Part shown: in pieces, positions 8,078 to 29,253 of the stretch
How positions within the stretch are numbered: position 1 is the first letter of the stretch
How the letters are laid out: every line of letters starts with the position of its first letter
Assembly: GCA_963575745.1 (NCBI GenBank)
Contig: CAUYUJ010020529.1
Span: 91,177 to 155,176 of the forward strand
DNA length: 64,000 bases
Origin: Prorocentrum cordatum
Lineage: Eukaryota > Sar > Dinophyceae > Prorocentrales > Prorocentraceae
Direction: 5' to 3'
Notes under the pieces: generated by a model
The model's input: only the letters and a program-made list of their open reading frames with translations
The model's database searches: none
What the model was told of the DNA's origin: nothing
Position numbers and translations under genes: made by a program

Positions 8078-8817
8078 TGCGTGAGGGGTGGCACCGAATT
8101 TCAGAAATGTGGCAAATCCCCTGTGTTTTTGGACCCTGACCCCGCGGATCTGCGTGAGGGGTGGCACCGAATTTCAGAAATGTGGCAAATCCCATGTGTT
8201 TTTGGACCCTGACCCCGCGGATCTGCGTGAGGGGTGGCACCGAATTTCAGAAATGTGGCAAATCCCATGTGTTTTTGGACCCTGACCCCGCGGATCTGCG
8301 TGAGGGGTGGCACCGAATTTCAGAAATGTGGCAAATCCCATGTGTTTTTGGACCCTGACCCCGCGGATCTGCGTGAGGGGTGGCACCGAATTTCAGAAAT
8401 GTGGCAAATCCCATGTGTTTTTGGACCCTGACCCCGCGGATCTGCGTGAGGGGTGGCACCGAATTTCAGAAATGTGGCAAATCCCCTGTGTTTTTGGACC
8501 CTGACCCCGCGGATCTGCGTGAGGGGTGGCACCGAATTTCAGAAATGTGGCAAATCCCATGTGTTTTTGGACCCTGACCCCGCGGATCTGCGTGAGGGGT
8601 GGCACCGAATTTCAGAAATGTGGCAAATCCCCTGTGTTTTTGGACCCTGACCCCGCGGATCTGCGTGAGGGGTGGCACCGAATTTCAGAAATGTGGCAAA
8701 TCCCATGTGTTTTTGGACCCTGACCCCGCGGATCTGCGTGAGGGGTGGCACCGAATTTCAGAAATGTGGCAAATCCCTTGTGTTTTTGGACCCTGACCCC
8801 GCGGATCTGCGTGAGGG
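8078..8817. repeat. 73-bp satellite, 10 near-identical head-to-tail copies
   Basis: The unit runs from 'tgcgtgaggggtggcaccga' through a run of five T to 'gaccccgcggatc'. Copies start every 73 bp. The only variation I can see between complete units is one base in 'aatccc[C/A/T]tgtg', which reads C A A A A C A C A T in order. 73 is not a multiple of three and the frame is lost at each unit boundary, so the repeated 65-70-residue open frames are not real. There are no spacers, so it is not CRISPR. Confidence 0.95.
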
Positions 8818-9557
8818 GCGTCGATTTCGAGCCCCCCCAGCAATTCAGACAACGCGCCCAGGGGGTGCTAAAAATCCCGTTTGGGCTTCCCCCCCCCTCG
8901 CGCGGTCAATCATCTAGTTACAGTAACCAGCAAGAAGCAGAACTGTAACACTGGAAACTACAACCTACGACTGGTACAGGAAACTGCGAACCTCGCGCCT
9001 ACAGCCTGGTGGCCCCACAAGGGGGCCGGCGGATTTCTATTTACAGGGGATCGATTGTCTTTGCCTCTTGAGGCCCTCTTGGGGGTCTCTTGGTGCCTTC
9101 TTGGGCGTCTTGGGGACGTCTTGACCAGTGTTCATTTTGGATGGTCTTGAGGCCTTTCCGGCGTGTTGGCGCCCGTATGGAGCTATCTTAGAAGGTTGAT
9201 TGAGCATCTTGGCGGCCACTAGAGGTGGATCGGAGGCTCCGAGGACCCCAGAAGTGCGTTGGGGAATTCGTGTGCCCCTCCTTTGGTGGGATTTTGGACC
9301 CCACGGGAAGGTTTCGAAAGGGGAAGGGCAAGCGGGGGTCGGCGGATTCATCCACCGCCACCGTCTCCCTTCTCCCACCTCCCTCCTCTAGCCACTTTTT
9401 TCTTCGTTGCCACTTTGTCGCTGTTCATCCCCCCCTCCCCCTGGTTTGACTCCACACCCCCTTCATCCTGACCTTCCCCTCATCACCACTGGTGGCGGAA
9501 ACGGTTTGCCTGCGAACGGCAGCGGGGCAAATCATTATATCCCTTTTTTTCTCCCGA

Positions 9558-10837: not shown

Positions 10838-11268
10838 CTTTCAATGAAAACGTTTCGTGCCTTCGGGGACTCGGTCGGCCCCCGAACCCATGGGGAGGGA
10901 CAGGGGTGGCGGATGGGTCGCTTTGCCCCGCGCCGCTGCCGCCGAGTCGTTCGGTTCCCGCCTCCTTCTCTTGCGGGCGCGGGCCCCCCCAAACCCCCGA
11001 GGACGACGCTTCCTATGGAAGCGTTTCGTGCCCTCGTGGGCCCAGATCGCTCTCGAGCCCACGGGGAGGGAAGGATGGCCGAACGAGTCGCCTTGCCCTC
11101 CGCCGCCGCCGCCGAGTCTTTTGGCCCCCGCCTCCTATCTTGGTGTCTCGGGATCCCCCCAAACCCCGAGGGCGACGCTTCCAATGGAAGCGTTTCGTGC
11201 CCTCGGGGGTTCGGAGAGCCTCCAAATCCATGGGCAGGGCGAGGATGGCTGAACGAGTCGCCTCCCCC
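10838..11268. repeat. Tandem repeat, period about 170 bp, ~2.5 units
   Basis: The block 'cgtttcgtgcc' recurs at 10851, 11022 and 11191 (spacings 171 and 169). It is followed each time by '(a/c)tgggagggc', 'gaacgagtcgcct' and 'ccgccgccgccg'. The third unit is cut after 'gtcgcctccccc' at 11268 by the LTR retrotransposon and resumes at 29254 with 'tccgccgccgccgcc'. This identifies the insertion site. Confidence 0.8.
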
Positions 11269-11464
11269 TGTGCATGGAACCCGTGTAATACCCTCATATA
11301 TACTCCTTATCCTTACCTCTCCCGCACCTGGCCGTTTGGGCTCAGGTACTGAGTTGGAGCGATCGTACCTTGATCGCTTGGGAGGGAAAGATATCCATCT
11401 ATCCCTCCATCTCTCTACCAACGGATCAGGGGTTCTGTACTCTTGTACTTCAACCCCATACACA
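11269..11464 (+). repeat. 5' LTR of the giant copia element
   Basis: 196 bp, TGTGCATGG...CATACACA. It contains 'tcatatatact', a possible TATA-like region, and 'ggccgtttgggctcagg', which resembles the 3' part of the dinoflagellate spliced leader. Across the whole length only one base differs from the 3' LTR. The first base after it starts 'ggttatcag', a weak match to a primer-binding site for initiator tRNA-Met (family pattern TGGTATCAG). Confidence 0.95.
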
Positions 11465-11528
11465 GGTTATCAGCCCTTTAACGCTCACCTTCACCGACTC
11501 GCCCGCGGTGACCTTGCATGCGAGCCCA

Positions 11529-14500
11529 ATGGAGCCGCTTCGGCGCATGCGCCGTAAGGGTTCCATTGGGGCTTCGCGTCCAAGCTCTCCCACGGTGCGA
11601 CGGCTCGGTGACGAGTTGGAGAGCATTAGTGCGGACTGTGTTGGTGTCCCCGATACCCCCCCCAGCTCCCGAGGACCCGAGGCGCGTCTAGCTGCTGAAC
11701 TTCGCCGCAGCGCCGCCCGCGGGGGGACAGGAGAAGGAGTAGGAACAGGAAGGAAGGAGTTTCACACGCCGACCTTTGATCCTCCCTCCCCTTCCCCGTC
11801 GGGAGCAATCCCAACCGCGTCAGGCGAAAGCCTTACCGGTCTCGATACTCCAGGGCGCTTCCGCGCTAACCGCCGATGGACCTCAGGTGCTGGAACCCCC
11901 AGCCCTGCGACCGTCCCTGTGGCGGAGCACGTAGCTACCTTCGAGGAACTCAGTAGACCAGTGTCGGCACAGCCACAGACGCGGTACCCCAAGGTATCAT
12001 CGGATGAGACATCACACACACATGGTCCGAGTCGCAGCTCGTCCGCGCGCAACCGCCGTGGAGCCCCAGGCCCATGCGGCGAGAGCAGGTCGAGCCCGCG
12101 CACTGCCTCTCAGAGGCCATGCACTCCCCGCGACAGGGGACACAGGGAAGCTGACGCTCCCCACCTCTCCATCTCAGACGACCAGCTGGCGGAGACGTCC
12201 GCCGCAGGTGACATAGCTGAGCTCAGAGACCAGGTTGAAACCTTCGTGTCCAGCCAATACTCTGGACTACTACAGAGCGTTCAGACGAATGCCACGGATA
12301 CTGCAGCCATACGCCGCGATCTTGACGGCGCCTTAGGGATCATCGATTCCAGGATCGCCGAAGATAGACGCATCATAGGAGAACTGCAGTACCAGGTTGA
12401 TCGTGAGGTGTCACACTCAGGTGAACGAACGGCGATGGTCGAGAACCTGCGCAACTATCTCGCGCAGATGGAGCAACAACTTGTGATCGTACGCGACACA
12501 GGCATTTCTGCGGTCAGGATTTTACACGATGAGATCCACGACCAGCTCCGTAACCGACCAACCCCAACCGAGGCCACAGACCTCGGCGACGTTCAGTCTC
12601 AGATCAATGATCTTCGATCTTACCTAGACCACACTACGGCGACGCTTCGTACCGAAGCACACACAAACTCGTCGAACCTGATCGACATGTTGCAGCGTAC
12701 TGAGAGAGTCATCACTCAAAGGCTTGATGCGACCAACGCTGTCGTGCAGCCACTCGCTAACCGGATCTCTGACATAGAGCAGCGTTTCCCTGGTGTACAG
12801 GACGCCCTGGCAGAGTTGCGTGTCGGACGAGCCCAGACTGATCAGCTGGATTCTCCTCCCACGGTTTACGATTTCGCCCGCCTCACTGACAGGTTGCAGG
12901 AGGTTGAGAAGGCGGCGGACCACACGCAGTTAGAGCTCTCCCAGGTTATTCATGAAAGAGATACTGAGAAGGTACGTGTTGAGAGTTATCTCGCACGTCT
13001 GGAAAGCGAGGTGGAGGCACTAAGCGCCCGTCTCCGAGCATGCGAGCATCGGCTTGATCGGTATTCCCAACGGTCTCGGGATACTGATGAGTATACACGC
13101 CAAAAGGTGGGTCAAATACAAGAAGACATGACGAGCTGGACGAATCAGCTGATCGACCACACTAACGACACCAACATTCACCTTCGACCTGCAGCCGACC
13201 CGCGCAGGCCGACGGCAGTGTCCGCCGAAGCACCACAAGCTTCAGCAGGACAACAACGACGCACATCTCCAGGAGCAGCCTCCGCGGCAGCTTCTGCACA
13301 GACACGCCATGTGTCTCCTGTGCGCACAGAACCAACCATCGACGGTGCACCGATACCCTCACAGCCAGCGTCTGCGGTGTCGGTCCATACTACGACGCCT
13401 ATCAAGGAGTCAGACACCGTCCGTGTACCTGTCTTGCCTAAGATCACGCAGCTGCTGGAGTGGCAGCAAAGGGTGCGGAAGAACTTCGGGGCCGCCTCAG
13501 GGCGACCATCCAAAGCATACGCCTTCCTATGCGTGGCAGAACAACCCGAATGCACATTCGAGGATTTACAAGACAGTGGAGACTTTGAGAGCATCGATTG
13601 CAAACTCGCAACCGCTCTGAGCGACATCTTATCCTCAGACTTACGCTACCAAATCAGGCTCATCGAGACCAGAGAGCACAAAGCAGGACGCATGCTCAAA
13701 GGACGCCAGATATACTGGCATATCCTACAGTCCTACAAAGTGACAGACGTCGACGACGACCTGCACGATTTCGAGCGCCTTAAAGAACTGAGGATGAGAG
13801 ACGAAGATTTGCAACGTTTCATTACCGATTGGGACGCCTTACTCTTGGAATGCCGAGAAGTACCCGATCCAAAGATATTGGAATCGCTATTCCGCACACA
13901 GATTCGTAGACATGCATGGATGAAACAAGACATGTACGAGTACCAGCGCATGAAGATGAGCGACCCGAATCGTACCTACGGTTGGCTTCGACAGCGTGTC
14001 CTGGACATACTGGAGATTAAACAATTGGAGAAAAATCAAAACAAGCTACGGTACGAACACGAGACACGATCTCAGGTTAACGTGTGCGTTGCATGGAAGA
14101 AAGGCAATTGTCGCAATGGTGAACGGTGCAAGGCTTTACATACATATTCCAGGGATTGGAAGAACAACAAATCTTCCAGAACATCAACGGCTGGTGGCAA
14201 CCCCCGCCGTAGTATGTCCACTCCTGCGAATCACAAGAAGCCAGCATCAAGGCCGTTCTGCTTCGATTTTGCCAAGCGCAACACATGTACCAGAGGTGAT
14301 AAGTGTAACTACCCGCACGTCGCACAGTGCAAGGATTTCGCACAGAACAAGTGCACAAAAGGCGACAAATGCAAATACGCTCATCTCGCACCTGGTGCAA
14401 AGACTCCTGAACGAAGCCCGAGTCGACCACGGACTTCCAGCCAGGACAGCCGTGGCCGATCACCATCCCGCGGATCAGGAAGCCAACGGTCTTCACAACG

Positions 14501-17500
14501 CGGGGGGTTTCGCTACGCAAGCGATTCGCGACAGGGACGTGACAACCGACGCCAATACGACCGATCCCGTTCCACATCCAGGAGGTCCCAAGACTCTCGC
14601 AGCCAATCGAGAAGTCGTTACGACAGATCTTCGAGATCTACCTCCCGAGGACGAGACAATCGTGGCGGCGGACGTGGCAGTCCACGCGGCCGGGATCGAT
14701 CATATGGCAGTGACGAAGGACGTGGCAAGCGGTATCCGAGCCGCGGATCGCCCCGTGGTTCACCCAACACTAGAGCACGTTCTCCTGCCAACTTTAGACA
14801 TTCACGCCGTTCAGACCGCAGCTACGTCATCCGCGACAAGACCCTCATGGCCAACACCAAGGCCACAACGACATCTACCAAGATACGTCGTCGGATACGC
14901 TTCGACGTACGCAACGTGGACTACTATTTTCATACCATACCTGGCAGAGCCAGACTGGACAGGTGGAAAGAACTGCCGAATGAGGGTGACATCGTCAAAG
15001 TACCAGATCCATTACCACAAAAATGGTGGGATGCTAGTGCAGAGGCCTTACGAGAATGTCAACAAGAGGCACAACTATGGTACGACGAACTGTACGACTA
15101 CCGACACAACAAAGAGTCGGTGGCCACACCAACTGCGATCCGAAAGCATGACGACACTGTCAAGCAGTCATCAAAGACTGCCCAGACGACAACAACGACA
15201 AAGCAAGTCGACACTCCACGCTCGACTGCAGCATTGACAAGGTCTTGGGTTCTTGACAGTGGTTCTGCCCATCATATTCAGGGAAAACATGAACTTACGC
15301 AGACCGAGTCGGATCGCATATCTATTCGCGAAGAGCATATTCTGGAAACTGCAAATGGTGATCGTACCGTCAACGAGCACTACGACATACGGCTACCCGA
15401 AGTTGGACTGCATAGTTCAGCCCTTGCTTTACCAGACTGCCCATCATTACTATCAGTTGGAAAATTGATCGAGGTTGATGGCTTTCGACAGCTTTGGGAT
15501 CCTGAGCTGGGCTACATGCTTCAGGATCCGGGGGGCCAATGGTATAAGATTCCAGTCAACAATCGAGTGCCAGAGTTACGGCTTGACGACTTAACACGGA
15601 TACCACCACCACGTTTATGCACTTCGTCGGCACCCCGCCGTCGTCAGCGAAAGCGTTCATCCGCCCGCTGTAACGACACTTATTGGTGCTGCAAAACTAC
15701 AGAGCAACCAACCACTGCAGACGAGCTACGACCCCACATAGGGACCTGCCCCAAGAGACCACATGTCGGAGAGGGAGGAGGAGCACGGACCATCACGGTC
15801 GAAGAACCTCCCGACACAAGAACAGACGAGACCAACGTGGACACGACCACCGACTCGCCTACGTCTCAGATGCAGTGTTCTCCTCCACAATGCGGGGGGT
15901 TCGATATAGCTCAAGCAGACAACGACATACCGACAGAGACACCCACACGAACGCATCCAGACAACGATCGAGTTCTGCCCAACAGACAAAAGAAACCGAT
16001 CGACCCGATGCATTACATGACTCACAGCCCAAAACATCCCGACTGTGAGATCTGTTCTCGTACGATGGCACAGAATGCCCCGTGTAGACGACAGCGCAAA
16101 CCACATTCACCGGCAGACCCCGCCGAAGAGGATCACGCCTACGAAGCTTTTGTCCCGAAGAAGTTCGGTGAAGCTCTAACTGCTGACCATATCGCACTGG
16201 CCAAAGACGATGCCGCGGACAAACATGGCGACACATATGCACTTGTTGTCCTTGACAGATATACTGGCATCTTCATGGCCTACCCAGCGCTACACAAAGA
16301 CGCAGCTACTACAAAGGCATCCTTTCAACAGTTCATCGCCGCGAACGATGAGGTGAAGCATATCTACACAGACAATTCTGGAGAGCTTCAGAAAGCTTGC
16401 CGCCAATTGGGATGGAGACACGACACGAGTACGCCACATCGTCCACAGACAAATGGATTGATTGAGCGCGTTGTCAAAATTGTCATCCTTGGTACCAGAG
16501 CTGTGTTACATATGTCTGGTCTGGGACACGAATGGTGGAAAGAGGCCATGCAAGCCTTTTGCTGTGGACACAACTTTGTGCATACATCCACGGGCGTTGC
16601 TGCCCTCAAAGAGGAGCATGCAGAAAAGACAGCTCATGAAATAAGATTTGGCGAAAGCTTTCCTGGGCACTGCATACCATTCGGTGCTCGGATATTTTGG
16701 AAATGCCTCAACCCCGAGATTAACAACGAGACTGCAAAATTTAAAGAAAACACTCGGGAAGGGTTATTCATGGGATACCACTCACACTCTGGTGGACGAT
16801 GGTCAGGTGACTACCTTGTTTTGGACACGGCTACATGCGCCAAGAACCCTGATGGTGATCTGTGCCATGTGCACAGAGTCAAAGACATCATCATCCCTGA
16901 TGGCAAGTTCACCTACCCCGTGAAAGATGGTACTCTACGACATCATAACCCTGAGGCACACGACGAGGTGAAGGCATCTACTTCTCGCCCCTTGGGTGAC
17001 AAGCCAATGCCTGACCCTCCACTTTCTTACCCTAAAGAATGGGATGATCCGTCTATGATGACAACGGAAGATAACGCTGTTGATATCCAGACATCGGCTT
17101 CTGAAGTTGCTGCACCAGCGCCGGAGCCAGACTACTGGGAACAGCGTGGATATTGCGTCATCAGACACATTCGTACCCCAAGAAAGAAACTATTCATCCC
17201 AACGGACGACGTCATGAATATACCAGTACCTGTTGACCAACTCGACGTGACACGAGATTTCAAAACGACTTCTACTTTCGAGGGCGAAAGTAACTTCCGA
17301 GATGTTTGGGATGGTGTTAGCGCCAACGACCACAGGGAGCTGAGCGAGCCGTGGACAGGCACGATTCAGTTCTATGAGCTTCCAAAAATAACGCCAGACG
17401 GCAAAATGGTGGTTCGTGGACGCGAGACACGTGTGCAGACTACTACACGTCCTGATCACGTTCTTCCCGAGCATTGGAAAACACTTTCCCGTGGACAGCA

Positions 17501-19052
17501 AAAGAAAGAGATCGATTACGCCAACGACGTTAAACGAGCCCGTGAAATTCGTGATCGTGCTGCATTGCGAGTGTGGACAAGACAGGATAAACAGGTCAAC
17601 AATTTCCGTACTACTACATCAGGCGGACCCACATGGAATACTGTGGAACGACGGATTACATACGACACTGACAATGGTGACGTCATCCGCGACGAGAATG
17701 TCAAAGGCGTGACAAACAAAGAAATACTGTATGCCAAATTACCTGGTGGGCCACGTGACATTACCACGGTACTATACTACCGTCAACTACCACAACAGCA
17801 CGATGGAGAAGAACGTGCTTTGGTATTTGTGGATAATGAAGGAACCGACTTTGGGACTTTGAACCCGCTCATACGCAAGTTCACCCAGTCGGTAGCAATA
17901 CCAACCATGCCACGTGAGACCAACTACATGCCGGCACACAGAGATAAAATACCAGATTCGACATGGTCACGCCCAGCATTAGTTACCAGAAACCTGAGTA
18001 AGAAAGAAGTTGCCGCAGAACCACGTGCACAAGAAGCCCTACGAAAAGAATACGAGAGATTGGAAATGAAACAAACATGGATGTTGGAGACTGTTGCAGA
18101 AAAAGCTGACATTGAGTCACAAGCTGTTCGCAATGGAACAAAGGGGCACTTCTTCAATATATTGGAATTATCTTCAGTCAAACATGAAGAACTTCCTCCT
18201 GATCTACGTAAATTCAAGGGCAGAGTGGTGGTTCAGGGCAATACAGGCAAAGATGAAACTGGTTTGGCCGCCATGTTCGCCGACGCCGCTTCCAGTGCTT
18301 CGCATATAGAGGCTTCCAAACTTTGCGATGCTACTGCATTATTACCGCAATATGCGGGAGAGCAAAGTGACGCACCTGGAGCTTACGCGCAGGCATTATT
18401 ATACGGCGACGGACGAATTGATCCAGTTGATACTTGGATTACTATACCTAAATGGCGACAACCGACATCATGGTCAAAATGCAATAACCCAGTGTGCCGA
18501 TTGCGATTGGCACTATACGGACACCCTCTTGCAGGTGTCTTTTGGGAACGAAAATGCCGTACATGCTTGGAAAGCGTCGGTTTCGAGCCTATTTCAGGAT
18601 GGGAATGTGTATGGAGACACAACAAACTGGGACTGATACTTTCAGTATATGTGGACGATTTCAAATTGGCCGGCCCAGCTCATAATCTACAGACTGGCTG
18701 GGATTATATTCGTAAAAGCGGTATCGATTTGGATCCACCTACTCCATACTCACAATATTTGGGTTGTGGACAACAAGCATATGACGTACCGCAGAGCATC
18801 TTCGACAAAAGAATGTCCACAATACGCCCTATGCTACCTGCACACAACGAGAAAGAATACAATACGGCAAAACACGTTCGTGGTATTCGACATGACATGC
18901 TTGGTTTTACAGATCAGTGCATTGAGCGGTACCTGGAATGCGCCTCCAAGCGCGCCCAGGGAAAAAGGGTCACGTCGGAAACGATCCGACTCGCCGAGGG
19001 CTTCGCGATCCAAATCGCCATCTTCCTCCGGGTCGGTCGCCAGACCTACTAG
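11529..19052 (+). CDS. Gag-Pol of copia element: Gag, protease, integrase, reverse transcriptase
   Basis: The frame is open from inside the LTR. I place the start at the ATG at 11529 (Met-Glu-Pro-Leu-Arg-Arg) because 11370 lies within the LTR. An acidic, coiled-coil-rich Gag region covers about 12200-13200. Three CCCH zinc fingers (C-x7/8-C-x5-C-x3-H) lie at 14085-14141, 14259-14318 and 14328-14384, where most copia Gags have a CCHC knuckle. An Arg/Ser-rich tract follows (14400-14830). The aspartic protease motif DSGS starts at 15255. The integrase has an HHCC-like stretch near 16010-16060 and catalytic Asp 16185, Asp 16371 and Glu 16464. RT shows 'RVVVQG' near 18220 and YVDD at 18648-18659. 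The frame ends at 19052, before RNase H, because of a +1 shift near 18945-18965. The element probably makes virus-like particles and integrates cDNA. Confidence 0.93.
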   Translation: MEPLRRMRRKGSIGASRPSSPTVRRLGDELESISADCVGVPDTPPSSRGPEARLAAELRRSAARGGTGEGVGTGRKEFHTPTFDPPSPSPSGAIPTASGESLTGLDTPGRFRANRRWTSGAGTPSPATVPVAEHVATFEELSRPVSAQPQTRYPKVSSDETSHTHGPSRSSSARNRRGAPGPCGESRSSPRTASQRPCTPRDRGHREADAPHLSISDDQLAETSAAGDIAELRDQVETFVSSQYSGLLQSVQTNATDTAAIRRDLDGALGIIDSRIAEDRRIIGELQYQVDREVSHSGERTAMVENLRNYLAQMEQQLVIVRDTGISAVRILHDEIHDQLRNRPTPTEATDLGDVQSQINDLRSYLDHTTATLRTEAHTNSSNLIDMLQRTERVITQRLDATNAVVQPLANRISDIEQRFPGVQDALAELRVGRAQTDQLDSPPTVYDFARLTDRLQEVEKAADHTQLELSQVIHERDTEKVRVESYLARLESEVEALSARLRACEHRLDRYSQRSRDTDEYTRQKVGQIQEDMTSWTNQLIDHTNDTNIHLRPAADPRRPTAVSAEAPQASAGQQRRTSPGAASAAASAQTRHVSPVRTEPTIDGAPIPSQPASAVSVHTTTPIKESDTVRVPVLPKITQLLEWQQRVRKNFGAASGRPSKAYAFLCVAEQPECTFEDLQDSGDFESIDCKLATALSDILSSDLRYQIRLIETREHKAGRMLKGRQIYWHILQSYKVTDVDDDLHDFERLKELRMRDEDLQRFITDWDALLLECREVPDPKILESLFRTQIRRHAWMKQDMYEYQRMKMSDPNRTYGWLRQRVLDILEIKQLEKNQNKLRYEHETRSQVNVCVAWKKGNCRNGERCKALHTYSRDWKNNKSSRTSTAGGNPRRSMSTPANHKKPASRPFCFDFAKRNTCTRGDKCNYPHVAQCKDFAQNKCTKGDKCKYAHLAPGAKTPERSPSRPRTSSQDSRGRSPSRGSGSQRSSQRGGFRYASDSRQGRDNRRQYDRSRSTSRRSQDSRSQSRSRYDRSSRSTSRGRDNRGGGRGSPRGRDRSYGSDEGRGKRYPSRGSPRGSPNTRARSPANFRHSRRSDRSYVIRDKTLMANTKATTTSTKIRRRIRFDVRNVDYYFHTIPGRARLDRWKELPNEGDIVKVPDPLPQKWWDASAEALRECQQEAQLWYDELYDYRHNKESVATPTAIRKHDDTVKQSSKTAQTTTTTKQVDTPRSTAALTRSWVLDSGSAHHIQGKHELTQTESDRISIREEHILETANGDRTVNEHYDIRLPEVGLHSSALALPDCPSLLSVGKLIEVDGFRQLWDPELGYMLQDPGGQWYKIPVNNRVPELRLDDLTRIPPPRLCTSSAPRRRQRKRSSARCNDTYWCCKTTEQPTTADELRPHIGTCPKRPHVGEGGGARTITVEEPPDTRTDETNVDTTTDSPTSQMQCSPPQCGGFDIAQADNDIPTETPTRTHPDNDRVLPNRQKKPIDPMHYMTHSPKHPDCEICSRTMAQNAPCRRQRKPHSPADPAEEDHAYEAFVPKKFGEALTADHIALAKDDAADKHGDTYALVVLDRYTGIFMAYPALHKDAATTKASFQQFIAANDEVKHIYTDNSGELQKACRQLGWRHDTSTPHRPQTNGLIERVVKIVILGTRAVLHMSGLGHEWWKEAMQAFCCGHNFVHTSTGVAALKEEHAEKTAHEIRFGESFPGHCIPFGARIFWKCLNPEINNETAKFKENTREGLFMGYHSHSGGRWSGDYLVLDTATCAKNPDGDLCHVHRVKDIIIPDGKFTYPVKDGTLRHHNPEAHDEVKASTSRPLGDKPMPDPPLSYPKEWDDPSMMTTEDNAVDIQTSASEVAAPAPEPDYWEQRGYCVIRHIRTPRKKLFIPTDDVMNIPVPVDQLDVTRDFKTTSTFEGESNFRDVWDGVSANDHRELSEPWTGTIQFYELPKITPDGKMVVRGRETRVQTTTRPDHVLPEHWKTLSRGQQKKEIDYANDVKRAREIRDRAALRVWTRQDKQVNNFRTTTSGGPTWNTVERRITYDTDNGDVIRDENVKGVTNKEILYAKLPGGPRDITTVLYYRQLPQQHDGEERALVFVDNEGTDFGTLNPLIRKFTQSVAIPTMPRETNYMPAHRDKIPDSTWSRPALVTRNLSKKEVAAEPRAQEALRKEYERLEMKQTWMLETVAEKADIESQAVRNGTKGHFFNILELSSVKHEELPPDLRKFKGRVVVQGNTGKDETGLAAMFADAASSASHIEASKLCDATALLPQYAGEQSDAPGAYAQALLYGDGRIDPVDTWITIPKWRQPTSWSKCNNPVCRLRLALYGHPLAGVFWERKCRTCLESVGFEPISGWECVWRHNKLGLILSVYVDDFKLAGPAHNLQTGWDYIRKSGIDLDPPTPYSQYLGCGQQAYDVPQSIFDKRMSTIRPMLPAHNEKEYNTAKHVRGIRHDMLGFTDQCIERYLECASKRAQGKRVTSETIRLAEGFAIQIAIFLRVGRQTY

Positions 19053-20601
19053 TGTGCTCAACGCACGGACAAGATCATCCAGCCCAGCAAAATCGATCGA
19101 CACAACTTCTACCAATACCATACCCGCCACATACCATGATCTACCCGACGCAGAGACCCCTGGCATCGAGGACACCTCCTTCACTGAGTCCGACTATTCA
19201 GACGAGGGCGTTCTCGGCCAGGACGCGGCAAGTGTGCTAATGAAGATCCTGTACTTGGCACGTTGCTGTCGTTTCGATCTTCTACATCCGGTATGTATGT
19301 TGGCCAGAGAAATTACCAAATGGAATACTACATGTGACAAACGTCTACATCGGTTGATATGCTACATCAAAACGACGCGTACACACTGCTTACACGGATG
19401 GATAGGCGATTCATCAGACAAGTTATCCATCATGCTGTTCACTGACGCCTCGTTCGCTGATTGCATTACATCATCCAAATCCACTACCGGTGTTTTTGCT
19501 GCGCTTGTTGGACCCAATACGTTCTTTCCAGTCAACGCTGTATGTAAGAAACAAACGGTTGTTTCACATTCATCTACTGAATCGGAGATCGTTGCTCTCG
19601 ATTCCGCACTACGACTGGAAGGGTTACCACTACTATCATTCTGGGAAGCCGTGGTGGGAGTTGCCAAAACATGCAAAGAGAAGAATACATGCCTGAGTTG
19701 CCATCGACACGTTGACCCGGCGATGTGTCCTACATTGGCAGCCAAAAAGAAGCGTAAACCATCGCCTCGCAAGGCACCCCCTACTCGGGGATCTTCTCCT
19801 AGCCGTAGGCAACTACCGCTAAATACGGATTTGCCTACGACTCCAAAGAGACGTACAATATCCCATGAAGGTACCGTACTACACGTGGATCCAGAGCCAG
19901 CTCCAGAGATCAGTGCACCGAAAGTACGACTTATCGTCTTGGAGGATAACCAGGCCGTTATCAAAATTGTCCAAAAGGGACGTACACCAGCACTTCGTCA
20001 TCTTCATCGTACTCATCGTATCAATCTGGATTGGATATGCGAAACATGTCAAATTGAACATATCGAGCTTAAATATGTAGGAACAAAAGAGCAGATCGCA
20101 GATATGATGACCAAACATTTCGAGACCAAGAAAGCAGACCTTTGGAAGGACCTCTTGGAACACTCGCTTATTTTTCCTGTTACTCCGATACAATGTCCGC
20201 CGATACGAGGGCCTCGGAGGCCCGACGGTTTACCTCATGAAGCGGAACCTCCTAAATTGAATGGATGCCCAGAAATATGCAAGATATTGCTGACGGAAAA
20301 AGAAAGATGGGGCGAGGTAGGATCAGAATGCGGATTTCAGTGTGTTGGACAAGCTAACCATGAGGGGCTATGTGCATGCATGTACCACTATGGCGTACCA
20401 GCCGCAGATACTGCGTCGCGCACACCTCGTTCACGCGCACGTTCACCGCACGGTAGACATCCTCGCCATCCTCCCTCACCTCAACGAGATGCAGAGAGAG
20501 TTAGGACATTGATTATTCGTTCACACCGCAGCAGTTTTACGACTCGAGCTGCAAAGCTTACAAAGCATCCTGTTTGCCGCTTGCGAGGCGAACATAAGTG
20601 A
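18940..20601 (+). CDS. Pol continuation: basic linker and RNase H
   Basis: Reads in the frame +1 to the upstream pol frame. The switch lies at or near 'gggaaaaaggg' (18959-18969), where a single inserted base would explain it. The segment begins with a Ser/Arg/Lys-rich linker (18970-19090), unlike typical copia pol. RNase H follows, with 'LFTDASFAD' (Asp at 19444), 'SSTESEIVAL' and the C-terminal 'VLEDNQAVI' and 'KEQIADMMTKHF' blocks. An insert of about 85 residues, Lys/Arg/Pro-rich with two Cys pairs, splits RNase H at 19680-19920. The C-terminal tail after RNase H is Cys-rich and then Arg/Ser-rich. Alternatives to mutation are programmed +1 frameshifting or a sequencing error in the homopolymer. 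Confidence 0.85.
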   Translation, partial: APPSAPREKGSRRKRSDSPRASRSKSPSSSGSVARPTSVLNARTRSSSPAKSIDTTSTNTIPATYHDLPDAETPGIEDTSFTESDYSDEGVLGQDAASVLMKILYLARCCRFDLLHPVCMLAREITKWNTTCDKRLHRLICYIKTTRTHCLHGWIGDSSDKLSIMLFTDASFADCITSSKSTTGVFAALVGPNTFFPVNAVCKKQTVVSHSSTESEIVALDSALRLEGLPLLSFWEAVVGVAKTCKEKNTCLSCHRHVDPAMCPTLAAKKKRKPSPRKAPPTRGSSPSRRQLPLNTDLPTTPKRRTISHEGTVLHVDPEPAPEISAPKVRLIVLEDNQAVIKIVQKGRTPALRHLHRTHRINLDWICETCQIEHIELKYVGTKEQIADMMTKHFETKKADLWKDLLEHSLIFPVTPIQCPPIRGPRRPDGLPHEAEPPKLNGCPEICKILLTEKERWGEVGSECGFQCVGQANHEGLCACMYHYGVPAADTASRTPRSRARSPHGRHPRHPPSPQRDAERVRTLIIRSHRSSFTTRAAKLTKHPVCRLRGEHK

Positions 20602-20635: not shown

Positions 20636-23600
20636 ATGGATCAGGCGCAGCCGCTCAACCTCGTCGGCTGGCCCATCGGCTACGACAAGGAGTACGACCC
20701 GAACGCCAGGGACGATGACCGCGTGGGCTTTGCGTACCGCGCTCAAACTGGTCGGCCTCGTGATCCCGAAGATGGTTACATATACATACATCAACGGCGT
20801 GCCGATCGGAGCGGAGAATTTGATCTTCGAGTACCCGACGAGTCTTCTATCCGTGAACTTGCCCGCTTCGCGTCCGTCGAGGCTAAGAAATGGGCCAGCA
20901 CTGAGAGTGGATCCGTCGGCGGCAACGCCAACTACGAGTACAACGCGTTCACAGCTACGCCGTGGCTATCTTTCATGCGTGCTATGTGTATGATTTCCAG
21001 CCTTTTCAATCGTAATCCTTCAGTACAAGATAGTGTTCGTGGACTACATGATCATTTGAACGCGACGATCCCAGGATGAGACCGCAAATGTCCACCATCA
21101 ATTTTTACTACTATGATACTGAAGACGGAGTGGATGATGATTCACAACGATTGGTCCAAAATTGGCAGTGCAGTTCTGGGACAATACACCGAGGACAGCG
21201 TTACGGATACGCAAAACTATTACAACAATGGTCTGAGTGCACCATCCGATGTATACCAGAATGGATTGGTAACGCCATGCTATGCTCCTAAAATTGATCG
21301 TGCAATGGCCAAGCTACCTACTCGTCCACCTGGCATCGCCAGGACATCGGATACATCTGGGCACATCGGTCATATCGTCGAGGATAACTTGGTCACCAAC
21401 ACGAGAGCTTTTTCCGACCTTACCCAAACAAAGAAGTTCCGCCGCAAGCTTACTACATGGTTGACTGCGCGCGGAGGCTTTGGAAGTATCGGATCAAACT
21501 CCAAGACGGTGGCAACACCATCCGACCATCCGAATGGTTGGGTGGCGATATTGGATGATCCACAAGAGACAGAGCGTACCTATCGTTGGACACCATACAA
21601 CGAGGGCAACGACTTCTTCGGCGACGCTGCTGACCACATGGGTTCGAATGATCCTGGCATGACTCCTGGCAATGATGTGGACCCATTCGAGTTGGACCAC
21701 GCAAAATACAGTGTTTTCTGTGGTGGTCGCTTGGTTTCTACCCTATTGTCAGACAATGGGTGGCACTCCCTCGTACAAGAGGACTTGGGACTACTATTAC
21801 ATCATGCATTTGGGCCATCGGGTCATGCGTACAAATGGACCAACTTATACACGGACTCAACATGGATCATGCATCCGAAGAAAGGGGCTAAGGGTGCAAA
21901 ACACAAGAAGTACCCCACTTTCGGCATCGACGAGCTCAACGCTGCCCAGAAGAGAATCGACCTCGCCAAAGCATCAAATACTGCTCTTGTTCCGCTATTC
22001 ATGCCGTGCCTTAACCGCGCGGAATACATGGGTGGCGCTACTCTTGAGCACCTGTCGACCATGATCCGCGACGACATCATGATGTGGGCATTCTCTTTTG
22101 GCAATTACAGGGAATGGTTCAGACAGAATGATACGCCGATCGGTCAAGATTGCGTTCTCTTGCCTGAAGCTGGTTATGAGGGCGTACGATACGGAATGGA
22201 GGAACTACGCAAGCAACGTTTCGAGAAAGAGGAAAGCCGTATCAACGCTCTTCTCAACAATCAGTTTGAGAACACTCTCGAGCAGCGCAATATGATCAGG
22301 AAGATCCGCGAAGCCAGAGGCCTCATGTTTCAAAGCGACAACGCTTCCATCAAGAAGTGGCGCGAGCTGAACGAGACCATCTGGGAATACTGGGCCAATG
22401 ATTTCCCATCATCCATAAAACAAAGACACTATCACAGGGGACTCAATGCCATGGTAGTATGGAGTGCGAACGACATCGCATGTGCTAATCCTGGACAGAA
22501 CACCATCGACATGCGCCGACATCACAGTCGTGCTCCTACCAACGTACACGAGCTCCAAAAGATGGAATGTGAGGGCGGCGTCCCGACGCTCATGCCCGTG
22601 CACGTGCTCGTGGACGTATCACGTTTTGTCGATGTGATGCAGTATTTCCGCTGCCCCACGGTCATGGGACCTGGAAAAGCAGCGCAATGGGGCGTACACC
22701 CGAACTTTGATCACCACACGAGCGACTTGATCACTATCATGCAGAACCGTGGTATCACTGTTCTTCCATCCGACCATTGGGTGGATACGTACGACAGGGT
22801 TACCCCACAGGCTTGGCACGCCAAACAGAATAACCATAACATGGCAATGTTTACAACGCAATTCTGCGACGCAGTATGCTATCGCAATTTTTGCGCATTG
22901 ATACAGTCTCTTCCTTCTCAGCCATATCCATTCAGGCCGCCATTGCTGACTTCTGTCACGGACAACCAGGCCTACACTCAGGCCAAGGAAATCATGGCAG
23001 CCCTCGACTTCAGAGAAAAGTTGACAAACGAATGGAAAAGAGACCTCAGCCTCACAACATTGATGACACAGACGGCAAACGAGATGGCTCATTGTGCGTG
23101 GATGGCGTCATGTGCCGAGGGCACATTGCCGGCATCACTGCCTGCCGAGACGGGCGACACGACTGAGCCGACTCCTGGAAGGTCTACACGTACGCCAGCA
23201 ACGGACCCTAGCGATCCTGACCAAACCCTTCCTGATAATGATCCATGGGTTATGGCATACAATGACTTATTCCAGTACCTTATGCTGTTGATCAAAGAAT
23301 ACCCTGGGGCTTGGGCATCTTGGCATTCTCTTGAGAAAGATGAACTTCTAGAACCCAAGATCGTCAAAACAGTTGAAGATGCACATGCAGTTACTTGGGT
23401 TGTATTCGAGCAATTCTTACGTCAGATCAAAGAGTTGGATGGAGACGATAATGCGACCAAATCAAGACTCATTGCAGAAGAAAACAGATTGTCTTCTCAC
23501 CGCATCGGCCCAGCTGCCGAGAACGAGAAGAACATCGAGGCATGCAAAACATTCTTCAAACAGAATGCACTGGATCGAGTTGCTTTGGGTCATGACCCTA

Positions 23601-26600
23601 ATGTCCCTACAGCCGTATGGAGGGCAGCTGATGACACAGCACAGCCAGCCCCACCAGGCCCATTGCCTGATCCACTGCAACCTGGACCGCAATCGATCAA
23701 AGCGTCGCAACCATCGACTCCAGAGCCTAAAGCAGAACAACAACCAGCAGATCAGCTCCCAAAAGCTGAGGCGGTACCGATCCCTGATGACGGCACCGAC
23801 CTTGAGGCAATGGAGCTGGAGGCAACTCCTGCTGAGGAGGAGCCTTCTCCACATGAGATGAATATATTGTCATGGCAGGACAGTTGTGAGCGTTCCATGC
23901 ACGAGGATACCAGCAAGCTCGGGATCTTCGACAACTCATGCACTATTCGCGAATGGAAGTTACAGTATGGCGTCAAAGATGAACATCCATACATGTGCCC
24001 AATGTTGCGGGGCACGAAAGCGACCAATGGATTTGCCTGCATCGAAGACCAAGAGTGGTACGAGCAGCTACTGCATGATGATAGTGTAATTGCTCATGCG
24101 CCTGACATTGCACAATCTGGTTGTTTCCCAGAATGGAAATGGATACCATTACCACATTACGACGATGTACGTTATGGTCCTGAGCTAATTGATGAAGAAT
24201 GGCTGGGAACAAACAAATACATGAGCAAAGACATCACGACTATGTTACGCCATGAGATTCACTACAAAAAGTTTTGGATCAACCAATTTCATGACAGACG
24301 TATTAATATCTGGGACAAAACAACAAAGAATGATTGGAAGATCCCAAACAATTGGAAATCATTTAAAGAAATGGTTCAATGGAAATTCCGAGATCGCAAA
24401 GAAAGACACAATGGACCATCCATGGAAGCGGCAGTGGCACATTTCAAGAAAGACGGTGAACATGATGGATACACCGATTGGAACGACTATTATGCGATAT
24501 TCATTATTCGTGCGTTCCAGAAGCATATTGACCCGCAGAAAAACAGAATCGAGATATGCGCCAAGCCGATTCCTGACGGAGGTGACCCCAGCACTTTTGA
24601 CTGGAACAGCGTTATTGCTATTCGGTGCGTCGGTGGTCACAGTTGTGTCAACCCATCTTCAAAGCCATGGAACATGGGATGGGAGAGCTTACAGTGGACA
24701 GATATCAAATATCTCCATCATGGAACAGCATCCCGCGCCTGGAAGAACATACTGAAGACAGGGATCATTCCTGGATATGTTGAACCACATTCTCAGAGAG
24801 ACAGAACTTATAAACCATCGCAGCGATCTGAGGCATTCTTCAGTTCTAGCACATATTTGAACAACGTTCAAAAGAACCCACATACTTCAGTGGAATCGTA
24901 CAAGTTCAACAGCTACAAGAACGAAGTCGAGCTGGTGATCAACATGGAGATCGCCACAAAAGCAGGTTGCAGATTTTGGTTGGGTGCTCAGGGCGCTATC
25001 ATGACTGAGGACGTGGTACCCGCTGCGGCAATTATTGCAATTCGCCGCCTCAAACCACACCGCGTGCATGGCCAGCAGCTGTGGCCAGACGGCGACCCAT
25101 GGGACTACCCGCCATTGGCAGCCAGAGAGCCATTGAGCAAATACGAGATTTGCGTCTGCCTTCCTGGAGAACTTATTGACGACCCACCTGGATTGGCACC
25201 TATCGACCCCGACCAAGACATGGAGCCTCCAAGGATGACGCCAGCATCAGCACCCTCGGCCAGGCCGGGGGAAACCCCTGCTGGCCGTACATCCGCAGAG
25301 GACGCCTTGGACGAGCAAATAGTACGTGCTATGATCCAGGAGACCAATCACAAAGCAGATGATAAAGAATGGTTGATTGCATTATCACATTGTCGTGAAG
25401 CTCTTCGACCAATCACAGCAAAGATCATGCAAAAAGATTGGGATCGTCGTCCTGCATTTAACGATGTTCGAATGGGCGACTTCATTGTCATTAAGAATTG
25501 GGGTTCTACCAAATGCTTCCACTACGACAACCATTGGCCCAAAGGCAATCACAATACCAAGATTGCCTTGTCCAAGGGACACATATATGGTCCAATCATC
25601 CATTTCGGCATCTTCGACAAGTTCTTTGCGGTACAAGTACCTATTCTCAACTACGGTTTACGATGGGTAAATATCTGGTATAATGACAAAAGCATGCCCC
25701 TCAAGGGCGTTGTATTTGCATTGCCGATTCGTATCGAAGAACACGCCATCGATCCAACATGGATGGAGACTGCCCTGAAAGGCCCGACATCTTGCAGCGA
25801 GGACATACTGCAGCACAAGGTTAGCGGCAGCTTACCATACCTTGGAATGCCTAGCATCCATAGACCACGTATTCCGCGTACACCACCAAGAAGGCCCGCT
25901 CCACGGACACCTGATCCAGACGAGCTGGTGGCCACACCTGCCGAGGACAACGCTCAGACGGGCGACATTCCTCGACAGGGTACAGCATCATCGCATGATC
26001 CACTGATCACCGTAATCGTGGACATATCAAATATCGTTCTTACTGCAGATGAGAAAGCTGCGAACGACAACATGAGGGCAGACCTCTCGGCAGACATCCA
26101 AGCAGAAGAGCAGATCGAGGCAAGCATCCTCGATAACATCATTGATCCGCCATCGAATTTCCTTGACCATCCAGACTACGACCCCGACGAGGATTCAAGA
26201 TGGAGTAGACAGTCTGATGATTGCCGCGTGTATTGTTGGACATCGGCGCTATTGGTGGATTCGCCTATGATCAAGATGAGGCAGATCATTGAGATACACA
26301 GTGGCGCAGACAGAATTGTAATGGACAAAATTCAGTCACATTTACAATTTGAAATTCGATTTGGATCGAAAGCATGGAACGCGGAGTCATATCATTTGAA
26401 CTACAATCATACCCACAAGTGGGCACATGACTTACCCAACTGTGGTGCAGATCACTTCTTCAAAAAGTTGGTACACTACCTCGACCCGGAGACTATCGAG
26501 GAGTCGACCACTGGCATCTTTCAATGGATTTCCAAAGTATACCAGAACATCTTGAAATATAGTAGTGTGGAGCTACCAGATTTCGCCAAGGAAGTCATCC

Positions 26601-28306
26601 ATGACAACCATCCTGCACTTCAGGCATTGCGTGACCTATACAAAAATTGTACTGCGACATACGGTGATCCAGAGTTTCCTATGTGGGAAGAGCTGGTGGA
26701 AACACCTGCTGCGCCTCGAGAGGAGGGCGCTGAGCAGGATATTCCCCAGGACCCAGGCAGTGTTGCGTCTGCAGCTCCCGATCAGGAGACTATGGTACGC
26801 ATCATAGCTGAACAGACGGGACTCAAGCGCGAGGAGGGCGACAACGAGGCTAACTTGCAGAAGCAGGCTCGCCGTCTTCGTGAGGAGAACGTATGCCATG
26901 GCGGTACTGAGGATACCGACAACGTCAAGATAGAGTACAAAGGACTGCCAGGGGAAAGGTTGTCTCGGATCGAGATCGAGGGTTTAAGCAGATCGATCGC
27001 TTCCAGACCAAACACCGAGATCAATCGTGAGGCGATCAATCAGATCGGTCAGAGCCTCGCTCGCGGTCAGGACACCCGCTGGGGATCCCGCGATCACCTG
27101 ACTTCGGCAGGGGCCCCCGAGACGATCTTGCATCCCATACCGCTCTGTAACAATTGCGGTCGAGATCTGTCCCTCGGTATCGTCACAGGTGACGGCACAC
27201 TCTGTGATATATGTTGGCAATACACTGTGGCCGTAGGCGCCACAGGTAAGAGCACCGCCACACAGAGTGACCTCGCGTACCTCCAGAAGTTGACGAACTG
27301 GATCAAGACGACGTTGTCCGAGGACCAGGTCGCGAGATACATGAAGGATGGCGCACATGTCATTATGACGGGTGCGCGATCCCCCATAGGCACAGAGAAA
27401 GATCAGTTGCGGAGATTGGCCAATACGTCCAAGAAGAGGTATCAGAAGTGGGTCGAAGCCGGTAGCCCGCCTGCACACGAATGCAGATTAATGGGCGAAT
27501 CCGAGGACGACCGACCTCTGCACTACCCATACGCCAATCTCATTCAACGCTTTCTCAACGACCTCAGATTCCATCATCAGATGACAGGGGCCCGCGTGAA
27601 TGTCGGCAAGAAGCCCTGGAGAGTCGAGGACATGCGCGACGCGTGGGACATCCTTGACGTCAGTATTAGGACAGGACAGGCTGGTCGGAGAAAGTGGTGG
27701 CTGAACGAGGGACGCATTGACAGGCAGACGCGGCAGGCGCGCGGACTGATTACGGTTTCTCTCCCTCGAGGGGACGGAACCCGTGAACAGTTCACCCAGC
27801 GCAAGCTTGCCGCGATTGCCAACGAGCTGATAGGCTCCCTCGATCCGTCACACACTGACCAGAGGGGGGGTAGTACAGGGATGAGAACCGATCCAGATAC
27901 ACACTCCCAACAGTCCGATGACGCCATGGAGCCGCGGCCGCCGCCGCGGCCGCCGCCGCGCCCTGCTCCTGGCGACGCCGCTGCATCCAGCGCCTCAGGC
28001 GCAGAGGACTACATGCCCGCGATGCCGCGCGCCAAGAGAGCACGTACATCTGATTACGCTGCTTACTGGCGCCACAATCTCGAGGACAGCGATTGGGGTC
28101 TTCGATACTGGAGTTATTACATCAAATGTTGGATCTACATTGCGATCAACAACGACGAGTATGTGTACATCCAGGATATCACGTACAACGATTGGTTCCG
28201 CAACTGGATCCCGAGGACCACTTGGGAAACGTTTACGACAAGCTATGTGACGTACAACGGCCAGAGGGTGTGGGACCGCAGGTTCTACAAGGACGGCGAC
28301 GCGTAG
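20636..28306 (+). CDS. Second ORF of the copia element: giant protein with Tpt1/KptA-like domain, one internal stop
   Basis: One frame is open from ATG 20636 to 28306 apart from a single TGA at 21077-21079, giving about 147 and ~2,400 residues around the stop. It starts 35 bp after the pol stop in another frame. About residues 1,165-1,320 of the long part match the RNA 2'-phosphotransferase (Tpt1/KptA) family: 'IRCVGGHS' (~24617), 'HHGT' followed by 'AW..I...G' (HGT at 24719-24727), 'AFFSSS' and 'ITEDVVP'-like strand motifs. A zinc-ribbon-like C-x2-C...C-x2-C lies near 27150-27215. The remainder has no recognised family. The N-terminal half contains 'VVWSAND' and 'LPSDHW', which only vaguely recall SGNH hydrolase blocks. 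Tpt1 enzymes transfer a 2'-phosphate from RNA to NAD+. Whether this copy is active is unknown. Confidence 0.85.
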
Positions 28307-29052
28307 TGAGTCGGCCGCAAGGTCCACTGCTCAAGAGCAGAACTTCCGTTCATCAAAGTTCGCCTTGAGCGGTGGCTAATACATTCTTTTAGGCCACTTC
28401 AATCTTTCACACAAGTGGCCATACACACATATAGATATCTTTTGCGATCACCGAGGCAGCCTCCTAAGGAGCAACGCCAACGGGAGTCGCCAAACAGATT
28501 TTATACATCATTTTCGTGTTCATCAACACGACATTTTCTCCTGGCCAGGTACTTGCTTTAACACAGATTTGCATTTCTTTCAGGATCGTGTTCGTCAACA
28601 CGATCTTGGCATACATTTGCCTTTAGGCAGACTTGTGTTTGATTTCAAGATTGTGTTCGTCAACACGATCTTAGCATGCATATTTTAACAATTTAGCAAT
28701 ATTGCGTCGAGAATAATCTGATAGCTGGTGGCAACACCTGCCTCGCAAACCTTGCGAGGCGGTTTACGTTGCCTTGGTGCTCAGATCTTCTTTCTCCGCC
28801 TACCTTTGTCTCATTCTTCTCCTCCCTCGAGTGCCGAAGCGTTTTGGGGGGCGCACCGAGGGGGCGGCAAAGACCGCCTGGAGAAGAAAAAGAGACCCAA
28901 GGTATCTCTTCTTACCTCACTTTGCAGCTGTGGCTTCGCTGACTTTTAGCCCAGCTGCCTTTTCAGACTTAAGGTAAAGGAGTTCTGAGGTTACGGATTC
29001 CATCCTCCTGATCCCGAGTCCTGCCTTCACGGGCGGGATTCGGGACGGGGTG
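28307..29052 (+). other. 3' non-coding region of the copia element with four hairpins
   Basis: No open frame of note. Three similar stem-loops lie at 28514-28531, 28582-28607 and 28647-28672. Each has a stem of GTGTT/AACAC core and a CATC or CGTC loop, and the surrounding sequence also repeats with a ~65-bp period. A fourth perfect 9-bp stem with a 3-nt loop sits at 28740-28760 (GCCTCGCAA/TTGCGAGGC). The G-rich 'cgggacgggg' at 29041-29050, just before the 3' LTR, is the likely polypurine tract. Confidence 0.8.
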
Positions 29053-29248
29053 TGTGTATGGAACCCGTGTAATACCCTCATATATACTCCTTATCCTTAC
29101 CTCTCCCGCACCTGGCCGTTTGGGCTCAGGTACTGAGTTGGAGCGATCGTACCTTGATCGCTTGGGAGGGAAAGATATCCATCTATCCCTCCATCTCTCT
29201 ACCAACGGATCAGGGGTTCTGTACTCTTGTACTTCAACCCCATACACA
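29053..29248 (+). repeat. 3' LTR of the giant copia element
   Basis: 196 bp, identical to the 5' LTR except for T instead of C at the fifth base. It is followed directly by the CCCCC target duplication and then by the continuation of the interrupted ~170-bp repeat. Confidence 0.95.
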
Positions 29249-29253
29249 CCCCC

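Follow-up and report, generated by a model that had tools for sequence, protein, structure and literature searches.

Enzymes of the Tpt1/KptA family remove 2'-phosphates from RNA; the essential Tpt1 residues form a tetrad of Arg18, His19, Arg68 and Arg121, while an HGT motif contacts nicotinamide adenine dinucleotide (NAD+) and Arg139 helps to cage the NAD+ phosphates (PMC6333775). Retrotransposons are known to capture enzymes, including a DNA methyltransferase (DNMT) in dinoflagellate long interspersed nuclear elements (LINEs) and DIRS elements (PMC5890265), GDSL and DEDDy ORF3 proteins in long terminal repeat (LTR) elements of rotifers (PMC5408684), and an N6-methyladenosine (m6A) demethylase domain in Gypsy elements of orchids (PMC9289625). 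Among copia-type elements, those primed by half a transfer RNA (tRNA), namely copia, 1731, Osser and Ty5, use the 3'-OH of tRNA nucleotide 40 as the starting point of DNA synthesis (PMC1181622). We here describe a copia-type LTR retrotransposon of 18 kb in a stretch of 64,000 nucleotides from the dinoflagellate Prorocentrum cordatum (GenBank assembly GCA_963575745.1, contig CAUYUJ010020529.1, positions 91,177 to 155,176 of the forward strand), hereafter the window. As indicated by homology, conservation and position, the polyprotein of this element carries a Tpt1/KptA-type domain after RNase H, in the C-terminal open reading frame (ORF) termed ORF3; by its sequence, the domain is a divergent Tpt1 relative rather than a textbook Tpt1. 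Furthermore, a second element family carries a Tpt1-type domain with an intact active site, and such domains thus sit in two different copia-type coding regions of one genome. The novelty lies in the Tpt1-type domain in LTR retrotransposons, captured enzymes as such being already known. A preliminary description of this DNA knew of no LTR retrotransposon with the domain, and our literature searches of open-licence papers likewise found none; the word phosphotransferase is also absent from the main text of PMC5890265 and PMC5408684.

All of the Tpt1-like strings quoted in the preliminary description proved to be in frame in ORF3, which reads IRCVGGHS at amino acid (aa) 1170 (nucleotide, nt, 24620), HHGTASR at aa 1202 (nt 24716), SYKNEVEL at aa 1267 and GCRFWLG at aa 1285 (nt 24965). 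The homology proposed there was borne out as well. The Pfam profile PTS_2-RNA (PF01885; gathering cut-off 26 bits) matched ORF3 over profile positions 71-176 of 177, and when excised pieces holding the domain were scanned, the scores were 26.8 bits (288 aa) and 27.0 bits (311 aa). PHROGs reported an RNA 2'-phosphotransferase over part of the same stretch (expectation value, E, 0.007), and in a single BLASTP comparison E. coli KptA showed 37% identity to the domain over 52 aa (E 1e-5). We also built a Tpt1 profile of 39 sequences, of which 35 were bacterial (37 loci chosen of 80, two with internal stops being excluded) and four came from alignment A2. This profile scored the ORF3 domain at 16.3 bits, a value that none of 5000 shuffles reached (best 9.3), and matched it in two collinear blocks in the Tpt1 order, the second block being weak. 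Profile-profile comparison of the domain with bacterial Tpt1 gave 92.7%, and the profile of the window plus 30 diverged copies gave 83.2% with a score of 43.2, whereas a reversed profile scored 13.3 and none of 40 column shuffles exceeded 24.7.

We then asked how the domain is placed in the element and how widely it occurs in the 4.13-Gb assembly (21,875 contigs). The host is a dinoflagellate, since exact copies of a pattern that we take to be the dinoflagellate spliced leader occur 7201+7017 times, as against 0 for the control. Querying the genome with the window domain yielded 2967 first-look candidates; at the best 126 scored places, the window's own included, identity was 94-100%, the domain (316 residues) was stop-free at 118, and an open frame of more than 5500 aa was found at 11. 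In one copy, L123, a single frame is open throughout the 3330 codons read, which start at ORF1 aa 1531, ahead of the integrase match, and end at ORF3 aa 1613. This frame, 98-99% identical to the window copy, spans the integrase, the YVDD motif, the ORF2 region, the 147-aa stretch and the Tpt1-like domain. Because of this frame and the 11 long ones, the Tpt1-like domain is taken as a part of the polyprotein following RNase H. The placement in an LTR retrotransposon given in the preliminary description was correct, while "a retrotransposon ORF" understates the case, as the domain shares the pol frame in L123. Five other copies of the element were examined. In four of these the two LTRs stand as far apart as expected, each time with a perfect 5-bp duplication (CTTCT, TCTTG, GGTTT and TGGGG); of the fifth, the places read showed a 5' LTR only.

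Protein searches with the domain gave 43 relatives (P0001-P0010 and P0013-P0045), 42 of them in a EukProt set that bears the label Pyramimonas; the remaining one, P0041, has a different source. A spread of the domain to a green alga was considered and dropped, as P0001, the one of the 42 that was checked, matches the window's own genome at 100%; for this reason the set is taken as the window's own genome, which suggests from sequence identity that these EukProt proteins labelled Pyramimonas sp. belong to a mislabelled or mixed data set. Querying the genome with P0001 gave a more diverged set, with 60-100% identity to P0001 at the best 150 scored of 1368 candidates. Elsewhere the searches were negative: NCBIfam gave no match to the domain, PADLOC none to ORF3, and Rfam and tRNA scans none in the window, a long-protein search for the domain returned 0 of 191 candidates at E <= 0.01, and viral contigs matched neither the window domain nor E. 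coli KptA. PF01885 was matched at E <= 1 by only four of the 11 members of alignment A1. A ligase-like KxDG motif noticed by eye (KKDGE) was discarded because its first Lys varies among relatives.

Residue conservation was counted over the 30 best of at least 150 diverged copies, some of which are near-duplicates (three lie on contig C9757). The NAD-binding HGT motif is present in the window and largely kept in these copies, with His1203 in 29/29, Gly1204 in 26/29 and Thr1205 in 24/29. Arg1171, which corresponds by motif to Arg68 of Tpt1, is invariant (29/29), as is Arg1208 (29/29), and Arg1133 is nearly so (28/29). For Arg121, the proposed equivalent is Arg1238, as the spacing R-x3-F-x-S parallels R-x3-H-x-S, and a non-significant alignment to the second family agrees. 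The best candidate for Arg18 is Arg1095 (27/28), by position only. An Arg1098-His1099 pair, taken from a mixed alignment, was rejected as the Arg-His pair, His1099 not being conserved. As a result, the Arg-His-Arg-Arg set that the preliminary description had singled out for checking is incomplete in the window's family, with two Arg kept, one uncertain and the His not conserved, and we therefore do not classify the window domain as a Tpt1 enzyme, although any activity that it may have would resemble that of Tpt1.

The relatives of the domain in this genome have diverged under purifying selection, a statement that applies to the diverged copies. With the 30 copies and the window there were 465 pairs, of which 435 share at least 150 codons; 259 of these had a proportion of synonymous differences (pS) of 0.02-0.6, the other 176 being saturated or too close. 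In the 259 pairs, which share ancestry and are not independent, the ratio of nonsynonymous to synonymous substitution rates (dN/dS) had a median of 0.27, quartiles of 0.21-0.35 and a maximum of 0.98, with none at or above 1. For the youngest pairs the ratio approaches 1, as expected of dead copies. Among near-identical loci, the key residues are kept in all 29 full-length ones, which include the locus of the window (one shorter locus of 30 was excluded), and the varying sites fall 13, 3 and 18 times at codon positions 1, 2 and 3.

A genome search with PF01885 revealed the second element family. The best 150 scored of 2877 loose candidates all exceeded the cut-off; the window's own place was not among these 150 matches. 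Seven of the matches listed (95-186 bits) are host-gene-like by score, and 143 (71-91 bits) follow, many of them in long frames (2926-2943 aa recurrently, with two of 4482 aa) and some in frames of only a few hundred aa. Nearly the whole profile is matched by 123 of the 143, and positions 59-177 only by the remaining 20. Six of them were read and form one family, sharing KxLSKAxSRICRHAP, F[IV]RASQGHS, MHGT and TGRSHIHF. Five of the six members read include the whole RNA lobe, and when these were aligned with KptA and two host-like genes (alignment A6), the five showed no variation in the columns for Ser, Lys, Arg, His, Arg, HGT and Arg. The family thus combines a full-length profile match (87 bits, profile positions 4-177) with a complete tetrad, while its residue at the Arg139 position is Asp. 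Arg139 is largely given up in both families, being Asp in the second and mostly His in the window's relatives.

The sole copy of this family that was read further, on contig C10025 (L165 with L173, G000:C10025:500-17200), has the Tpt1 domain (87 bits) in frame between a gag with a CCHC knuckle (18.6 bits; cut-off 20.8) and a RING finger. Further downstream in that frame, beyond intervening stops, lies an RVT_2 reverse transcriptase (RT; 41 bits, cut-off 31.6). The Tpt1-type domain accordingly stands before the RT in this one copy, and after RNase H in the window's family. Protease- and integrase-like motifs were seen by eye, to which Pfam gave no confirmation, and stretch L165 showed no significant similarity to the proteins of the window element. 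The suggestion in the preliminary description that Tpt1-like expansions of dinoflagellates may lie in retrotransposons is thus supported in part, by the second family as read in this copy. Since this second family has an intact Tpt1 active site, the association of the domain with such elements is not a single accident. As a separate observation, the RING finger in the polyprotein frame (L173:326-490, aa 109-163 of the piece L173:2-2236; PF17123, 35.2 bits, cut-off 27) is possibly a ubiquitin ligase domain in a retrotransposon, judging from the profile match.

The features of the window element are collected in Table 1. Its LTR ends (TG..CA) and 5-bp target-site duplication are those of Ty1/copia elements, and the integrase precedes an RVT_2-type RT, which is the copia order, both Pfam scores lying under their curated cut-offs. 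The coding region of the window copy is split across three frames, and a stop separates the 147-aa ORF from ORF3; ORF2 by itself gave no Pfam match. With 1/196 LTR bases differing, the window copy is probably a recent insertion, and it is damaged and now frame-broken. The gag of this element has CCCH-type fingers, and Pfam reported no CCHC knuckle in it. In the 3' untranslated part (28514-28681), upstream of the polypurine tract, lie near-copies of a hairpin-like sequence, ATCGTGTT-CGTC-AACACGAT, in which the direct repeat was computed and the hairpin seen by eye. Outside the element, the window holds a tandem array of a 73-bp unit (8000-8956) and a 440-aa ORF on the - strand (30240-31562), which by eye looks like that end of a dinoflagellate LINE where the zinc finger and RNase H lie, and which gave no Pfam match.

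Table 1. Features of the element in window coordinates.
Feature	Position	Strand	Evidence or remark
5' target-site duplication, CCCCC	11264..11268	.	Partner 29249-29253
5' LTR, 196 bp, TGTGCATGG...CCATACACA	11269..11464	+	1 mismatch to 3' LTR
Predicted primer-binding site, GGTTATCAGCCC	11465..11476	+	Complementary to nt 29-40 of tRNA-Met(cat) except at nt 34
ORF1 (frame 0), gag and start of pol	11370..19052	+	Listed start, inside the LTR, is nominal
gag CCCH zinc fingers, ORF1 aa 906-1012	14085..14405	+	Pfam zf_CCCH_4, 39.7 bits, cut-off 29
Integrase core (rve), ORF1 aa 1617-1692	16218..16445	+	E 2.3e-6, 28.2 bits, under cut-off of 32.6
Copia-type RT (RVT_2), ORF1 aa 2281-2466, YVDD	18210..18767	+	E 9.9e-6, 25.7 bits, under cut-off of 31.6
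ORF2, frame 1, RT end and RNase H (TESE motif by eye)	18649..20601	+	ORF list, copy L123
147-aa ORF in the ORF3 frame	20636..21079	+	Stop-terminated in window copy; 98.6% identity to part of L123 frame
ORF3, 2397 aa, C-terminal polyprotein part	21113..28306	+	Sole significant Pfam match is the Tpt1-like domain
Possible RNA-lobe equivalent, aa ~1079-1173	24347..24631	+	Three helices and hairpin in model of pLDDT 37.7; Arg1095, Arg1133, Arg1145, Arg1171 conserved
Tpt1/KptA-like match, ORF3 aa 1166-1299	24608..25009	+	Pfam, PHROGs, BLASTP, shuffles, profile-profile
HHGT, aa 1202-1205, NAD-binding HGT motif of Tpt1	24716..24727	+	Conservation in diverged copies
Arg1238, proposed Tpt1 Arg121 equivalent	24824..24826	+	Kept in 28/30 diverged copies
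Polypurine-tract-like CGGGACGGGGTG	29041..29052	+	Precedes 3' LTR; sequence reading, other copies
3' LTR, 196 bp	29053..29248	+	1 mismatch to 5' LTR
3' target-site duplication, CCCCC	29249..29253	.	Partner of 11264..11268

Directly 3' of the 5' LTR lies GGTTATCAGCCC, the complement of which, GGG-CTGATAA-CC, reads as an anticodon arm. In the tRNA-Met(cat) of this genome, nt 29-40 are GGG-CTCATAA-CC, which gives a match of 11/12 ending exactly at nt 40, as in the half-tRNA-primed (Hemivirus) elements, and the tRNA half is the predicted primer. The site is unique in the 64 kb at up to one mismatch and identical in all five other copies read, and by eye the match extends, past a small internal loop, to another five bases (AGCGT, nt 21-25). 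The tRNA-Met(cat) is inferred to be the initiator from its GGG-CCC anticodon stem, a hallmark of initiator tRNAs. A search pattern that we presume to represent the initiator tRNA matched 11 places in the genome, as against three for its reversed control, and nine of the 11 lie on one contig with GGGCTCATAACCC. ARAGORN, applied to four of the 11 places, called two tRNA-Met(cat), one tRNA-Ile(aat) and at one place no tRNA. The contig with the nine tRNA-Met-pattern sites is G000:C19152 (L114-L122), where the two loci checked lie among Ser, Ala and Leu (at one of them also Thr) tRNA genes, and the gene called tRNA-Ile, initiator-tRNA-like with the anticodon AAT, is located at L112:1473-1545.

On these grounds we consider it likely that the window polyprotein holds a divergent Tpt1/KptA-type ADP-ribosyltransferase domain that would act on RNA-end phosphates for the element. 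The domain would bind NAD+ through its HGT motif, Arg1171 and Arg1238 would hold the RNA phosphate, and a phosphate at RNA ends would be removed or ADP-ribosylated; the likeliest substrate would be RNA handled in the particles, such as the tRNA-half primer or the RNA ends of the element. The second family, which carries all four key catalytic residues, suggests that RNA-end chemistry is performed by such elements themselves. Several results weigh against this reading. Alignments with bacterial Tpt1 leave Arg1238 off the Arg121 position. P0041, a relative of 35% identity on a 719-bp contig, reads HRAT where the window has HHGT and is without Arg at position 1238, and the window copy itself falls outside the dN/dS count, its 29 comparisons being saturated (pS 0.66-0.85, with proportions of nonsynonymous differences, pN, of 0.15-0.27). 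Other opposing results would fit a former Tpt1 that has lost catalysis and now gives the polyprotein a module for binding RNA or nucleotides. No Arg-His pair is conserved in the diverged copies (position 1096 is Arg in 16 and Gly in 12, and His1099 occurs in 2/29), and the residue at the Arg139 position is Ser in the subfamily of the window and His in 23, Arg in 6 and Asn in 1 of the 30 diverged copies. A weak Pfam score and insertions relative to bacterial Tpt1 point the same way. However, most of the diverged copies retain HGT, Arg1171 and Arg1238, which a mere scaffold could do without, and we thus regard a loss of catalysis as rather unlikely.

The remaining opposing results concern the homology, and could mean that the resemblance is due to chance or that the domain derives from another ADP-ribosyltransferase lineage. 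Single-sequence scores are low, PTS_2-RNA matching the whole 2397-aa ORF3 with 23.5 bits (E 6.3e-5), under its cut-off. Profile-profile comparisons of the window domain were not significant with the second family (4.2%; five sequences) or with two host-like Tpt1 genes (1.6%), both of these profiles being thin, and the best BLAST match to the second-family domain had E 0.58. Because the two domains show no significant similarity, the intact site of the second family does not transfer to the window domain. On the structural side, a sequence search of solved structures matched no Tpt1 chain, and an AlphaFold model (alignment A3, 11 sequences) had a predicted local distance difference test (pLDDT) value of 37.7, too poor for a fold search. 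In this low-confidence model three helices are followed by a hairpin, a helix and strands, an order compatible with that of a winged helix plus an ADP-ribosyltransferase lobe. Against chance or another lineage, two libraries, Pfam and PHROGs, agree, the matched stretches stand in the Tpt1 order, and shuffled sequences and reversed or column-shuffled profiles score far lower, making such an origin very improbable.

Within the preferred reading of a domain acting on RNA ends, we considered two special cases. The domain may heal the 3' end of the tRNA-half primer by taking off the 2'-phosphate that an anticodon nuclease has left, which would let the RT start from nt 40 of the initiator tRNA-Met. 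This is attractive because a half-tRNA primer needs a 3'-OH, the ends that many anticodon nucleases produce carry cyclic, 2'- or 3'-phosphates, and Tpt1 removes 2'-phosphates; the primer-binding site, which ends exactly at nt 40 where the half-tRNA elements also start, makes the primer-tRNA role raised in the preliminary description more concrete, although it is not proof. On the other hand, RNase P leaves a 3'-OH, and healing would be needless if this enzyme makes the cut; moreover, Copia and Ty5 to our knowledge use half-tRNAs without a Tpt1-type domain. Indeed, the cut of the Ty5 primer has been ascribed to host RNase P (PMC5371799), and we hold primer healing in the window element to be unlikely. 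A bolder form, in which two unrelated copia-type families each built in a Tpt1-type enzyme that frees a nuclease-cut tRNA half of its blocking phosphate for priming, such that the retroelement repairs its own primer, seems slightly more doubtful still. The other case, by analogy with viruses, is protection from host defence, in which the domain would repair RNAs cut by host nucleases, or cap or modify RNA ends by ADP-ribosylation. KptA domains in the polyproteins of Beihai picorna-like virus and a nidovirus, for which RNA-processing roles have been proposed (PMC9503650), speak for it, whereas Pfam and PADLOC scans of ORF3 gave no ligase, 2H or Macro partner and no tie to a defence system was seen here; it can be entertained only as an improbable variant.

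If the domains are active, NAD+-dependent RNA-end chemistry would join the toolkit of retroelements. Their place in retrotransposons would also explain many of the PF01885 matches (the best 150 of 2877) in this dinoflagellate genome. The domains further give a handle on the old question of how the 3' end of a half-tRNA primer becomes ready for the reverse transcriptase.

Compared with Tpt1/KptA enzymes (PF01885; E. coli KptA and Clostridium thermocellum Tpt1), the window domain shares, in matching order, the motifs IRxxxGHS and HGT, the region that follows HGT and, towards the C-terminus, blocks of the form G-x-x-F and T-E/S-x-V, but it differs in lying inside a retrotransposon polyprotein, in its unconserved RNA-lobe Arg-His pair, in its changed Arg139 position and in its insertions. 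With the Hemivirus copia elements (copia, 1731, Osser and Ty5; PMC1181622), the window element shares the integrase before the RT, the 5-bp duplications and a primer site against tRNA nt 29-40, whereas its family is set apart by frames that in some copies stay open for about 5.7 thousand residues, CCCH-type gag fingers and a long C-terminal extension with the Tpt1-like domain. The retrotransposons with captured enzymes are similar in having an enzyme domain fixed in a retrotransposon family, and differ in the enzyme. Finally, the KptA domains of RNA viruses described in PMC9503650 resemble the present case as Tpt1-type domains that form an extra part of the polyprotein of a replicating element; those elements are positive-strand RNA viruses, while here they are LTR retrotransposons, present in many copies in the host genome and in two families.

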